From a virus, in IMG/VR virus record IMGVR_UViG_3300031240_000017, positions 1 through 43,899 of that record: DNA of 43,899 bases; one strand, written 5' to 3'. Made by a program: the position numbers and the translations under genes. The notes below the pieces were generated by a model. That model had not been told where the DNA came from. It ran no database searches and saw nothing but the letters and a program-made list of their open reading frames with translations. Every line of letters starts with the position of its first letter. The stretch's first letter is position 1. This document shows positions 2,498 through 32,170 of the stretch, one piece after another.

Positions 2498-3880
2498 ATG
2501 TCCGGCAATTTCCAAAATCTTCCAACAGCTCTGCAAGTAGTCATTCAACAAGGATGGCTTGAACGCAAAATTAGAGCCGCATTGCAAAACAAACTTGCAT
2601 ATCGCGCTCTCGTAGAAAAAGAAACTTTCCCAACTAGAATTGGCGAAGCTTTCAAAAGAACTCGCACAGCGATGTTGCCGGCTGTCGTTAAGAAGCTCGT
2701 TCCGTCGGATATGTCCAACGCAGCTTCTTTGACCAATGGACAAACCGCGCAAACCGCTCCTGGCTATGAACAATGGGACGTAACTCTTGAAGAGCACGGC
2801 ACTTTCCTTGGCTTGAACCGCAAGCAAGACAAGGTTTCTCTCGTCAATAACTACTTGAGAAATGCTGGCTTGCTGGCCAATCAATCAGCCAAGTCTCAAG
2901 AACACATGGCTCGCAATCCCTTGTTTGGCGCTTATCTGAGTGGAAACAGCTATGTTGTAACAGCATTGGGTGCAGGCACAAGCACGACCGCGCTCGTTAA
3001 TGACATTCGCGGCTTCGACACTGTTTTGATTGCAAACGGCACTCTGGCAGCTACAAGCGTTTCAAATCCTTTGACTTGTTATGCAACCAAGCCGGATAAC
3101 ACCGTTGTCACTCTTTCGGTGACGGGCGTTGTCGCAGAAGGTACAAATCACAGCTCTGCTTCTCAGCTCTCTTCGGACGGCGTTGAACAGGGCGGAATCT
3201 CCGGCACTTTGACTTTTGCTGATGCTGGCGGCACTTTGCCGGACGGTACAGTTATCAAAGCAATCCATGGTTCAACCATTTTGCGCCCGAAAGGCAAAAC
3301 TCGCACTTCAGCCTTGCTGGGCGGCGACATGCTGACTCTCTCATTGCTTTTGGATGCAAAGCTTGCACTGGAAAACAATGGCGTTTCCGGAGCAATTGAT
3401 TGCGTTCTTGATCCTTCTTCATTGCGTCAACTGTATGCCGATCCTGAATTCCAGAATCTTCACACTGGCGGCAGAGCTGATACTGAAATGAATACTGGCA
3501 TGATTTCAGCAATTCTCGGAATCAATTTCCGCACAACTACTGAAGCATTCCAGCAACCGGCATTCTCCGGAACCGGCGCTCACAACATTCCTGTTGCTGT
3601 CCGTAGACCAATTCTTGTCAGCGAAGGCTGCATTGTTGAATCGACTTTCGAAGCCGATACTGAACAGGAAGATCAAACCATCCATAACATCGTCACCGTT
3701 GACGGCGTTAATTTCATCGACAGACCATCCTTGGACGTTTTCGCTCAAAACGTCACACAGGCATGGGAATGGACCGGTTGTTACAGTGTTCCACAAGACC
3801 AATCGATGACAGCGGCGATTATGCCGACTGCATCCGGCGCCCGCTACAAGCGCGCTGTGGTTATCGAGCACGCAGGCTAA
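2498..3880 (+). CDS. Major capsid protein
   Basis: 460 residues from the ATG at 2498, which has AGAGGGG about ten bases upstream; an in-frame GTG at 2465 would add 11 residues but lacks a ribosome site. The N-terminal half (helical, then FKRTRTAMLPAVVKK, the EQWDVTLEEHGTFLGLNRKQ segment and LVNNYLRNAGLLA helices) fits capsid proteins of metagenomic myoviruses in which a phrase like GETQTFTR-LLPP precedes the EQW segment. Residues roughly 170-255 form a Thr/Ser/Val-rich stretch that looks like an inserted Ig-like beta domain. Size and position after scaffold support the call. The 107-base leader after the terminator contains a repeated GCCAGGCGC and a small GGTT-GT-AACC hairpin, possible control elements for this highly expressed gene. 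Confidence 0.75.
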   Translation: MSGNFQNLPTALQVVIQQGWLERKIRAALQNKLAYRALVEKETFPTRIGEAFKRTRTAMLPAVVKKLVPSDMSNAASLTNGQTAQTAPGYEQWDVTLEEHGTFLGLNRKQDKVSLVNNYLRNAGLLANQSAKSQEHMARNPLFGAYLSGNSYVVTALGAGTSTTALVNDIRGFDTVLIANGTLAATSVSNPLTCYATKPDNTVVTLSVTGVVAEGTNHSSASQLSSDGVEQGGISGTLTFADAGGTLPDGTVIKAIHGSTILRPKGKTRTSALLGGDMLTLSLLLDAKLALENNGVSGAIDCVLDPSSLRQLYADPEFQNLHTGGRADTEMNTGMISAILGINFRTTTEAFQQPAFSGTGAHNIPVAVRRPILVSEGCIVESTFEADTEQEDQTIHNIVTVDGVNFIDRPSLDVFAQNVTQAWEWTGCYSVPQDQSMTAAIMPTASGARYKRAVVIEHAG

Positions 3881-5472: not shown

Positions 5473-6258
5473 ATGCTCACCGACATGGAACGAGTCGCAA
5501 TCAGAAGTCACCTCGGGTATCCGCCCGTTGGTGCTCCGCAGATTGCGCCGGGCCGCGTCGGGCGTTATTTGCTCACGAATATCGATCTTTCCGTTTATGA
5601 CGACTCTTTCAATGCTTTGGAGTTTCGTTTAAACCGTTTGCGTGCAGCAGAAGAAGTCCTTTTAACTGGCGCTGCATATGGGGCAATTTATTTCGGAAAC
5701 CTTCAGCCGTTCACGACAGCTGATTCAATCACGATAACGATTACTCAAGGGACGGCGATTGATAAGGAATTGACTTACACCGCCTTAAATGGCGAGAAGC
5801 TCATTCCGTTCATGACAAGGATTTCAACAGCAATCAATCAAGACGTTGATTTGACGGCCGCCGGCTTTACTGGCTCCTTCCCAAATGACGGCTCAATGAG
5901 TGAATTCGCGATCTTTGCTCCCGTGGAATTTGAAATTGCTATCACCACGACCGGCAATATGCTGGCTACTTTGAGCGGCTTTGGCAAGCTGCCGAATATG
6001 CACTTTGATTCTTGTTGCGATTCGGGCGAAGTCGTTTATGGACTGATCAATATCTGTGATGCTTTGGAAAATGCGATTGCAGGCTCATCTAAACAACTTG
6101 GCTTTGCCAGAACAGGCGATGTCTACTTTAATGGCCGTGTTTTGAGAGAAAGAGAAAAACTCTACCAAAGATATAGGAAGCGTTTGGCCGAATTTCTGAA
6201 AGTGCCATTCTTTGCAAGTAGCACGGGCGGCGGTGGGGCTGGAAGGTTTGTCTGCTAA
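5473..6258 (+). CDS. Head-tail connector (adaptor)-like protein
   Basis: 261 residues. The N-terminal helices (ERVAIRSHLGYPP and FNALEFRLNRLRAAEEVLL) and the C-terminal helix (LREREKLYQRYRKRLAEFL, then a Gly-rich end) resemble gp6-type adaptors that dock under the portal. Between them, roughly residues 82-175, sits a beta module with an AINQDVDLTAAGF helix that matches the modules of the protein at 3958 and so looks inserted into an adaptor core. The ATG follows the previous stop directly, and the stop overlaps the next ATG. Moderate confidence: assigned from helical ends and position. Confidence 0.5.
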   Translation: MLTDMERVAIRSHLGYPPVGAPQIAPGRVGRYLLTNIDLSVYDDSFNALEFRLNRLRAAEEVLLTGAAYGAIYFGNLQPFTTADSITITITQGTAIDKELTYTALNGEKLIPFMTRISTAINQDVDLTAAGFTGSFPNDGSMSEFAIFAPVEFEIAITTTGNMLATLSGFGKLPNMHFDSCCDSGEVVYGLINICDALENAIAGSSKQLGFARTGDVYFNGRVLREREKLYQRYRKRLAEFLKVPFFASSTGGGGAGRFVC

Positions 6259-30649: not shown

Positions 30650-30694
30650 TGGAACGAACGATTGTTAGAAACCCAAACTGAAGGAAAAACTAAA

Positions 30695-31444
30695 ATGTCA
30701 ATAAAACAACTAAACCAATTGATCGCTCTGGAAAAAGGCGTAAAGCAACGGACATACAAAGAGATTGACGCAGCATATGACTTGCTGCGAAAACCGGAAG
30801 TACTCAATGGATTTGCAAAGGAATACCAGCCGCTTGAGGAAAACGGACAAAGCTTGCCGTCCGAATCGAAGAAAGTTCAGATAACGTCCGGTGAACTCTT
30901 TGAAATTATCAAAGATCAGATGATCGAATACCTCAATATTGAAACCAGCAAGGATTTTACGAATGCTTCTGCAACCGGTGACATCATCGCCAATGGTGTC
31001 GAGATCCAAAAGGGCGTTCCGGTTACAACATTGCTGGCATTGGAGAAACAACTTCTTGATCTGAGAACCAGTATTGAAAAAGCTGTAACGCTTGATCCTT
31101 CGCAAGACTGGAAGTTCGACAAAGCTACTGGCTGCCAACGAACAGAACCGGTAAGAAAAGCTCGCACCAACAAGGTTCCAAAGGTAATTACGTTGGCACC
31201 CGCTACAGACAAGCACCCCGCCCAAACACAGCTCCTTCAAGAAGATGTGATCGCAGGCTATTGGGTGCAAACGGAAATTTCTGGAGCACTTGAAGCACCG
31301 ACAAAACGCAACTACATTGAAAGAGTGAATGATCTTCTTGATGCAGTGAAAGCCGCACGGGAACAAGCAAACAGCACGGAAATTAAAAGGTTCGAATTCG
31401 CTGAGAAGATGTTGAATTACGTCTTCGCTGGTGATAAAGTCTAA
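30695..31444 (+). CDS. Unknown protein beside the tRNA-like cluster
   Basis: 249 residues from ATG 30695, with AAGGAAAA 10-18 bases before it; an upstream in-frame TTG (30662) lacks a better ribosome site. The start IKQLNQLIALEKGVKQRTYK leads through EYQPLEENGQSLPSESKKVQ, a central segment VPVTTLLALEKQLLDLRTS, a KATGCQRTEPVRKARTNKVP stretch and KHPAQTQLLQEDVIAGYW. I remember similar proteins in other phage and bacterial genomes (a DUF7873-like group) but no function. No catalytic motif is evident. The stop lies 44 bases before the first permuted tRNA half, so it may be co-transcribed with that cluster. Confidence 0.6.
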   Translation: MSIKQLNQLIALEKGVKQRTYKEIDAAYDLLRKPEVLNGFAKEYQPLEENGQSLPSESKKVQITSGELFEIIKDQMIEYLNIETSKDFTNASATGDIIANGVEIQKGVPVTTLLALEKQLLDLRTSIEKAVTLDPSQDWKFDKATGCQRTEPVRKARTNKVPKVITLAPATDKHPAQTQLLQEDVIAGYWVQTEISGALEAPTKRNYIERVNDLLDAVKAAREQANSTEIKRFEFAEKMLNYVFAGDKV

Positions 31445-31488
31445 GTACGGAAACGAAGTTCAAACTTAAATTCAAGATGAAAGCGAAG

Positions 31489-31561
31489 TCGGTTTGATGC
31501 AGGTGCGAATCCTGCTCGGGGCTCCAATATGCCCCGGTAGCCCAACAGTCGAGGCGACCGA
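31489..31561 (+). tRNA. Candidate circularly permuted tRNA gene 1
   Basis: The 3' half comes first: anticodon-stem strand TCGGT (31489-31493), variable TTGAT, T stem GCAGG/CCTGC around loop TGCGAAT (31504-31510), acceptor strand TCGGGGC (31516-31522), T, then CCA (31524-31526). After ATAT follows the 5' half: acceptor GCCCCGG (31531-31537), TA, D arm with GCC/GGC (31540-31555), G, anticodon strand ACCGA (31557-31561). Rejoined, the acceptor pairs 7/7 with one G-U, the anticodon stem 5/5, and a sixth pair C31562-G31488 is possible. No usable upstream 5' half exists. The anticodon loop would come from joining flanks, but no T33 is evident, so function and anticodon are open. Confidence 0.6.
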
Positions 31562-31574
31562 CGAGCAAAAAGAA

Positions 31575-31599
31575 AATCAACTTATTTCCTAAGTTGATT
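31575..31599 (+). other. Perfect 10-bp hairpin between the two permuted genes
   Basis: AATCAACTTA (31575-31584) and TAAGTTGATT (31590-31599) pair perfectly around TTTCC. It lies after 5' half 1 and before 3' half 2. It could separate the two RNAs for processing or be a recombination relic. It is not followed by a T run. Further small hairpins follow: GCT-GAA-AGC and GGTG/CACC around a seven-base loop (31611-31625). Confidence 0.7.
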
Positions 31600-31622
31600 G
31601 CTGAAAGCAAGGTGTCTCAAGC

Positions 31623-31725
31623 ACCACTGCAAATCACTGGAAGATTTCGGTTCAAATCCGAACTCGGGCGCCATGCCTGGGTAGCTTAATGGCAGAGCAT
31701 CCTTTCTTAGACCTAAAGCAGTGGT
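31623..31725 (+). tRNA. Candidate circularly permuted tRNA gene 2 with end-joining helix
   Basis: 3' half: GGA (31639-31641), AGAT, T stem TTCGG/CCGAA around TTCAAAT (31651-31657), acceptor CTCGGGC (31663-31669), G, CCA (31671-31673). One base later the 5' half begins: acceptor GCCTGGG (31675-31681), TA, D arm GCTT/GAGC (31684-31698), A, TCC (31700-31702). The acceptor pairs 7/7 including two G-U. Flanks pair too: ACCACTGC (31623-31630) with GCAGTGGT (31718-31725), an 8-bp helix holding both ends. Removing that helix after AAA (31717) and before GGA would give a continuous stem TCCTTT/AAAGGA with loop CTTAGACCT. Anticodon uncertain (TAG or AGA by different framing). Confidence 0.55.
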
Positions 31726-31762
31726 TTAAACGTCGTCACCACGCGAAGAAAACAGCATAAAA

Positions 31763-31829
31763 GCATATAGCTCAATAGTAGAGCGATTGACTTGTAATCA
31801 ATTTGTTCTGGGTGCGATTCCCAGTATGC
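31763..31829 (+). tRNA. tRNA-Thr(TGT)-like with five-pair acceptor stem
   Basis: Linear order. Acceptor GCATA (31763-31767) pairs with TATGC (31825-31829), only five pairs; the flanking bases (AA/AA) do not pair. TA, D arm GCTC-AATAGTA-GAGC, G, anticodon arm ATTGA-CTTGTAA-TCAAT (5 pairs, anticodon TGT at 31793-31795), variable TTGTT, T arm CTGGG-TGCGATT-CCCAG. Compared with ordinary phage tRNA-Thr, two bases are missing from each acceptor strand at matching places, no CCA is encoded, the D loop lacks the GG pair, and T-loop position 55 is G. It could be a decayed gene or an unusual but working tRNA. Confidence 0.6.
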
Positions 31830-31841
31830 AAAATAAATACC

Positions 31842-31874
31842 GGGGGCGTCTCAGGCTACGAGGCGCCTCCACCA
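31842..31874 (+). other. CCA-ended hairpin, tRNA minihelix-like
   Basis: GGGGGCG-TCTC (31842-31852) pairs with GAGG-CGCCTCC (31860-31870) around the seven-base loop AGGCTAC: 11 pairs including two G-U. It is followed by A and CCA (31871-31874). An acceptor stem plus T arm stacks into such a minihelix ending NCCA, although this loop lacks the T-loop consensus. It may be a tRNA remnant, a tRNA-like processing substrate, or a chance GC hairpin. No T run follows, so a terminator is unlikely. Confidence 0.45.
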
Positions 31875-31922
31875 TTTAGTAATTACTTTTGCCATAAACG
31901 ACTTCACGCGGTAACTTCTAGT

Positions 31923-31986
31923 CAGCCAAGCGTGGAGGGGCTCAGCCTCATAACCTGAGCCCGAGCGTTCGAATCGTCCTTGGTTG
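31923..31986 (+). tRNA. tRNA-like element with CAT anticodon and no D arm
   Basis: CAGCCAAG (31923-31930) pairs with CTTGGTTG (31979-31986), 8 pairs with one G-U. Then only eight bases (31931-31938) before a long stem GGCTCAG (31939-31945) with CTGAGCC (31955-31961) around CCTCATAAC, which holds CTCATAA with CAT at 31949-31951. A T-loop TTCGAAT (31968-31974) is flanked by GAGCG and CGTC, pairing if one G bulges. TCGA follows in place of NCCA. There is no room for a D arm. Possibly a degraded tRNA-Met or an armless variant. Confidence 0.4.
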
Positions 31987-32038
31987 TCGAGAAATCGGGT
32001 AGCGGTCCCAGCCGAGCCTGCACCGACTTAGTCAATAA

Positions 32039-32079
32039 AACACTTCATCGCCTGCACGGGATGAGGTGTTTTTGTTTTG
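32039..32079 (+). terminator. Strong rho-independent terminator ending the tRNA-like cluster
   Basis: AACACTTCATC (32039-32049) pairs with GATGAGGTGTT (32060-32070): 11 pairs with one G-U, ten-base loop, followed by TTTGTTTTG. It ends the transcript of the tRNA-like region and insulates the appendage genes that follow. Between 31987 and 32038 lies a GC-rich piece with TCGG/CCGA and GGG/CCC pairings (CGGGTAGCGGTCCCAGCC), which may be another 5' tRNA half but for which I find no partner. Confidence 0.85.
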
Positions 32080-32170
32080 CGGCGAAAAACTTACTTTTGC
32101 AATCCTCCTGGGCCCAAAACAAAATCAAATTACCCCCCAAACCGAAAGACGTTATTGCAGGTAAGAGATT

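Follow-up and report, generated by a model that had tools for sequence, protein, structure and literature searches.

A permuted tRNA-like domain, probably the first of two in one noncoding RNA, lies directly downstream of a DUF7873 gene in a phage genome

Positions 31488-31562 of the window, by which we mean the whole 43,899-nt stretch of IMG/VR virus record IMGVR_UViG_3300031240_000017, hold the 3' half of a tRNA-like sequence ahead of its 5' half. We are confident that this feature (element 1) is a conserved permuted tRNA-like RNA. It is probably the first of two such domains in a single noncoding RNA of approximately 350-450 nt, which lies directly 3' of a DUF7873 gene and would function as part of a ribonucleoprotein. 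The T-arm, acceptor, and D-arm fold as in tRNA, and the strands expected to make up an anticodon (or variable) stem run outward into the rest of the RNA. Since it is one of two such domains in an RNA found beside DUF7873 in many phages and bacteria, element 1 probably acts as a mimic of tRNA within a new RNA-protein system rather than as a codon-decoding tRNA gene. The DUF7873-associated RNA is previously unlisted.

Phage genes are present in the window, and all of the features described here are on its + strand. Element 1 is closed by a stem of GUCGGUU (31488-31494) and GACCGAC (31556-31562). Within this stem, the T-arm (31499-31515, GCAGG-UGCGAAU-CCUGC) is followed by the 3' acceptor strand UCGGGGC (31516-31522), UCCA (31523-31526, with CCA at 31524-31526), AUAU (31527-31530), the 5' acceptor strand GCCCCGG (31531-31537), U8 and A9 (31538-31539), and the D-arm (31540-31555), so that the acceptor is a hairpin, UCGGGGC-UCCAAUAU-GCCCCGG (31516-31537). 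A first-pass annotation made from the letters alone had described a permuted order with a CCA four nucleotides upstream of a fully complementary 5' half, and its coordinates and pair counts are essentially right. The acceptor has the 7/7 pairs, one of them G-U, that it gave. The anticodon stem that it counted as 5/5 or possibly six pairs is also present, although this outer stem is longer, with 7 bp including one G-U. The permuted cloverleaf is part of the minimum-energy fold of the genomic strand, in which the join consists of the 7-bp stem, a GAA/GA internal loop, and a 2-bp helix. The R1 covariance model, built from second elements and with the window's element 1 absent from its training set, matches at 31483-31569 with 53.7 bits (E 2e-17), and the Rfam YrlA model matches the element as well.

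The gene directly 5' of the RNA (30695-31444) encodes 249 amino acids from its ATG and defines the family; its product matches Pfam DUF7873 (PF25283) with 271 bits when the longer start at 30662 is used. We drew DUF7873 loci from IMG/VR (at least 278), INPHARED, and GTDB genomes (at least 555), fetching the best 80 each from IMG/VR and GTDB. A strict scanner found a permuted element within 600 nt downstream of DUF7873 in 145 of 177 loci, compared with 0/177 for reverse complements, 0/177 for shuffled sequences, 1/180 upstream, and 3/172 at 700-1300 nt downstream; these controls rule out chance pairing. With a looser scan, an element with 7/7 acceptor pairs was observed at 83 of 101 viral and 75 of 79 bacterial loci. 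The strict scan found no element at approximately one-fifth of the DUF7873 loci, and a Microcoleus phage has a DUF7873 gene at which we saw no element. Relatives in IMG/VR that are 29-44% identical mostly have one or two permuted elements directly downstream. The gene and the RNA element co-occur across phages with many different hosts and across the chromosomes of bacteria from several phyla: the cultured phages with both infect Gordonia, Arthrobacter, Pseudanabaena, Rhizobium, Klebsiella, and Vibrio, and the chromosomes with the locus include those of Nocardia, Nonomuraea, Streptomyces, Myxococcus, and Ktedonobacter. In Klebsiella phage FBKp24, a tRNA-Sup-TTA is annotated at 5949-6028, where it overlaps the DUF7873-associated RNA; the permuted element has probably been mis-called here.

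The first-pass annotation had noted neither the second permuted element of the window (element 2, 31623-31725) nor the wider family. Element 2 has the same order as element 1 and a different sequence; R1, whose training set includes it, scores it at 68.1 bits. Its closing helix pairs ACCACUGC (31623-31630) with GCAGUGGU (31718-31725), or alternatively AAAUCACUG (31631-31639) with CAGUGGUUU (31719-31727). The T-arm is UUCGG-UUCAAAU-CCGAA (31646-31662), the acceptor hairpin is CUCGGGC-GCCAU-GCCUGGG (31663-31681), with 7/7 pairs, two of them G-U, and NCCA in the loop, and the D-arm is GCUUAAUGGCAGAGC (31684-31698). A conserved motif, UUUAAACGUCG in the window (31725-31735) and UUAAACGCCG in the family, lies 3' of element 2, and similar motifs occur no more than 90 nt past element 2 in 81 of 103 loci. 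It is followed by a tRNA-Thr(UGU) in ordinary order (31761-31832; ARAGORN; RF00005, 56.8 bits) that is without CCA and has two A-A mismatches at its acceptor end. With a tRNA of ordinary order at the corresponding place in 43 of 152 loci, this is an optional third tRNA module of the family. An 11-bp hairpin with the loop AGGCUAC (31841-31870) comes next, and a GC-rich hairpin with the family loop GGNUA is present in 107 of 152 loci.

Several further observations concern these flanking parts. In Nocardia, the ordinary-order module lies approximately 280-355 nt past the DUF7873 stop codon and has a nearly identical sequence in different species apart from the anticodon, for which UCG, CUG, CUC, GUU, UCC, AUC, and UCA all occur while U33 is kept, giving a constant body with a hypervariable anticodon. 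A tRNA-Met-like stretch at 31919-31993 of the window, with anticodon CAU, an 8-bp acceptor (CAGCCAAG/CUUGGUUG), and a seemingly missing D-arm, is called by neither ARAGORN nor RF00005. Arms of 15 nt in the GGNUA hairpin (31850-31864) and in the Met-like anticodon stem (31945-31959) are 87% complementary. The RNA and tRNA region probably ends in a terminator at 32037-32072, an inverted repeat followed by a T-rich run. At the other end, the 5' segment of the RNA (31456-31487) is hexamer-periodic (RRCUYA-like) in relatives when compared by eye, and its probable pairing partner is the stretch that separates the two tRNA-like domains. The hexamer-periodic tracts in the 5' and middle segments, as in loci L038, L039, and L053, can be read as KLKL or RLRL peptides, which makes coding the alternative to the likely interpretation of these tracts as helices with a regular mismatch. 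We set aside a coding tag because the segments appear to pair with one another.

Compensatory changes in relatives, on which the first-pass annotation had made its reading depend, are abundant in first and second elements alike. The covariation score is 0.734 for 56 second elements, a value reached in 0 of 500 shuffles, and 0.618 for 58 first elements; slid partners give 0.10-0.22 in both cases. There are 146 distinct acceptor combinations, and when partners are swapped between loci only 2.4% pair 7/7, although acceptor pair percentages are inflated because acceptor pairing was among the properties selected for. Selection made no use of the outer stem, which scores at least 12 in 55% of elements, compared with 7% with swapped partners. 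RNAalifold, unaided, predicts the T-arm, acceptor, and D-arm. For 35 full-length actinobacterial RNAs it predicts both T-arms, both acceptors, and both D-arms together with long closing helices (alignment columns 192-197/323-328 and 205-213/304-312), with compensatory changes. Inspection by eye shows that the opening of many first elements is at the position of the variable arm and that a GAAA loop is all that is left of their anticodon arm (for example, L038 and L040).

We used ARAGORN in place of the tRNAscan-SE comparison of joined and genomic orders that had been proposed earlier. Among elements with an outer stem score of at least 9, the joined form is called a tRNA in 79/82 and 83/84 cases (162/166), the genomic order in 0/166, and halves swapped between loci in 74/244 and 22/249. 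Several joined variants of the window's element 1 are likewise called tRNA. Joined halves are called and the genomic order is not, which indicates that the shape of the elements is that of tRNA. In the genomic order of the window, ARAGORN and RF00005 call only 31761-31832. This joined-form result, the encoded CCA, and the other tRNA nearby in the window speak for the first-pass interpretation, a true circularly permuted tRNA gene from which a decoding tRNA would be produced by joining at the anticodon and cutting at the CCA. As in the permuted tRNA genes of algae and some archaea, the 3' half precedes the 5' half and a full cloverleaf appears once they are joined. The permuted order and the joined cloverleaf therefore stand, but the claim of a decoding gene is not supported: T at position 33 occurs in 24/82 and 23/84 elements, which is background, and no anticodon is constant among the permuted elements. 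In addition, element 1 often has its opening at the variable arm and a degenerate anticodon arm, and two elements usually lie within one larger covarying RNA, whereas known permuted tRNA genes are not so embedded. These known genes also differ from the present RNA in their hosts, which here are bacteria and phages, and in splicing, for which we recognized no motif by eye. Bulge-helix-bulge splicing is not known to be established in bacteria, and this too argues against such a gene. It is with this splicing that known permuted tRNA genes are described (PMC3978253). A decoding tRNA gene is unlikely, given the lack of U33 conservation and the membership of both elements in one larger RNA, and we regard the full scheme of joining, cutting, and decoding as very improbable. 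The first-pass statement that the halves have no partners in linear order is not entirely right for the window, where CUCGGGC (31663-31669) pairs 6/7 with the 5' half of element 1, but in the family the 5' half of element 1 pairs 7/7 with the 3' half of element 2 in only 5 of 81 loci (mean 4.4), which is background. We accordingly rejected a linear, intron-containing tRNA made of the 5' half at 31531 and the 3' half at 31646-31674. No intron family is above threshold, and a group II intron, for which there is only a sub-threshold match of 14.9 bits, was also rejected. The probability is close to nil that the elements are remnants of duplicated tandem tRNA genes with lost outer halves, an origin that the first-pass annotation had raised as a caution. 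Identical tandem tRNA genes do mimic the pattern, as with two tRNA-Asn genes at one locus (L231). They are a real false-positive mode of the scanner and of R1, and because they reach up to about 56 bits, R1 is too unspecific for orphan surveys. However, such remnants do not account for the presence, at a single place in most relatives, of diverse, covarying elements that differ in sequence, and phage tRNA arrays with more than 30 genes give no further strict-scanner matches; covariation and controls thus contradict this origin.

In 91 of 224 elements, the acceptor is followed by NCCA (chance is about 1.6%), G1 is present in most, and U precedes G1 in 118 of 224 (31-68% by group). These frequencies speak against mimicry of shape alone and make processing at the acceptor possible, as in two-piece tmRNA, and the acceptor loop may be cut to true tRNA ends with a role beyond shape. 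Permuted tmRNA genes are indeed processed into two RNAs (PMC10085705). They resemble the present RNA in having the T-arm and CCA end encoded ahead of the 5' acceptor strand and in carrying the tRNA-like half on a larger RNA. An RNA cut at its acceptor loops by RNase P and 3' processing enzymes would consist of two or three base-paired pieces with one or two tRNA-like, aminoacylatable CCA ends, as in two-piece (circularly permuted) tmRNA. We judge this unlikely, as many bacterial acceptors are capped by loops of only 4-7 nt and the 146 acceptor combinations show no constant synthetase identity. Covariance models of tmRNA have no match in the window region or at the DUF7873-associated RNAs, which, unlike tmRNA, have a true, full D-stem, two tRNA-like domains, and no established tag reading frame. 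Ornate phage RNAs such as GOLLD and ROOL are likewise large, structured, phage-borne, and often near tRNA genes; no Rfam match to GOLLD or ROOL reaches the gathering score. In Gordonia phage Phendrix, a tmRNA (RF00023, 89 bits) at 3099-3627 within the tRNA array is missing from the annotation of the record. The closest known RNA is YrlA, a Y RNA (RF02553). Both have the permuted domain, with T-arm, acceptor hairpin, and D-arm atop a stem of the outer strands, and YrlA-like RNA also occurs in phages, as in a 395-kb phage record (L235). The Ro60-binding motif of Y RNA is GNCGAAN0-1G in the basal stem. This motif is absent from 31400-32080 of the window and is not clearly enriched among the loci (45/177, compared with 33/177 shuffled). 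At a relaxed threshold, the YrlA model matches element 1 over the full model (31474-31586) with 29.6 bits. The Rfam gathering threshold is 69 bits, a cut-off that does not discriminate here because the TROVE-adjacent Y RNAs of Kitasatospora (L234) and L235 also score only 30-42 bits. We nevertheless rejected filing element 1 as YrlA on 29.6 bits because the same search gives below-cut-off matches in 7 of 14 control genomes. The TROVE-adjacent Y RNAs of L234 and L235 have the same topology and are matched by both the scan and R1, indicating that the permuted domain is shared by Y RNAs and the DUF7873-associated RNA. In the same L235 record (G015), a TROVE gene is accompanied by one or more adjacent Y RNA-like elements, and a DUF7873 locus with two elements lies approximately 8 kb away. 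The full-length model match and the common topology would fit a YrlA Y RNA acting in trans for a Ro60 (Rsr) protein of the host, which we consider decidedly unlikely. There is no TROVE (Ro60) gene in the window or in its 77-kb relative. Of 17 related phage records, 2 contain TROVE, as do 7 of 16 bacterial genomes with DUF7873, but it is adjacent to the DUF7873 RNA in none of them, including all of the complete or large records, while others may be incomplete. Furthermore, YrlA is a single-domain RNA of 90-150 nt whose stem holds Rsr (PMC8394870), whereas the present RNA has two domains, approximately 400 nt, DUF7873 and not Ro60/Rsr as its partner gene, no Ro60-binding motif in the window, the conserved family motif, the GGNUA hairpin, and the optional extra tRNA. 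The DUF7873 RNA may work like YrlA, but it is not filed as a Y RNA.

The DUF7873 protein itself was compared with known families and structures. PADLOC and NCBIfam have no match to it, and the best hit of a PDB profile search has an E value of only 0.14. Its AlphaFold2 model (pLDDT 90) gives Foldseek E values above 0.01 and VIA Z scores below 7 against the PDB, which does not establish novelty of the fold, and no confident full-length structural relative was found in the PDB or BFVD. A crAss-like phage protein of 179 amino acids in BFVD (A0A7M1RW91, uncultured phage cr118_1) matches the fold in part (probability 1.0, TMt 0.55). The bacterial gene neighbors of DUF7873 are variable and give no functional clue, and a literature search that covered few subscription papers and no preprints yielded no publication about DUF7873 or about any permuted tRNA gene of bacteria. 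The window's DUF7873 is acidic (pI 5.5), which does not suggest RNA binding and counts against a ribonucleoprotein.

Returning to the noncoding RNA with two permuted domains, we propose that it would form a ribonucleoprotein with DUF7873, which the basal helices would hold, while the two tRNA-shaped domains would recruit or occupy proteins that recognize the elbow and acceptor of tRNA. Candidate targets would be RNase P, tRNA-modifying enzymes, or PNPase as in the YrlA/Rsr complex. The tRNA-like domain of YrlA is a substrate of the modifying enzymes DusA and TruB and a binding partner of PNPase (PMC8394870). By such engagement the phage could redirect or shield host tRNA metabolism, a role that we offer tentatively by analogy. 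What the analysis shows is the structure and its conserved linkage to the gene, whereas binding and function are inferred. It is quite plausible, at somewhat below an even chance, that DUF7873 and its RNA represent a ribonucleoprotein class that is new and has no relation to Ro60/Y RNA, in which two permuted mimics, joined in some lineages by a third, ordinary tRNA module with a hypervariable anticodon, take part in conflict among phage, host, and rival elements over tRNAs.

The locus is widespread, given the at least 278 IMG/VR and at least 555 GTDB loci, and has apparently been missed so far because tRNA finders do not consider permuted order and its protein is classed as a domain of unknown function. 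If our interpretation is correct, permuted tRNA mimicry would not be confined to the Y RNAs of Ro60, DUF7873 would gain a testable partner, and the finding would bear on why phages carry tRNA arrays.
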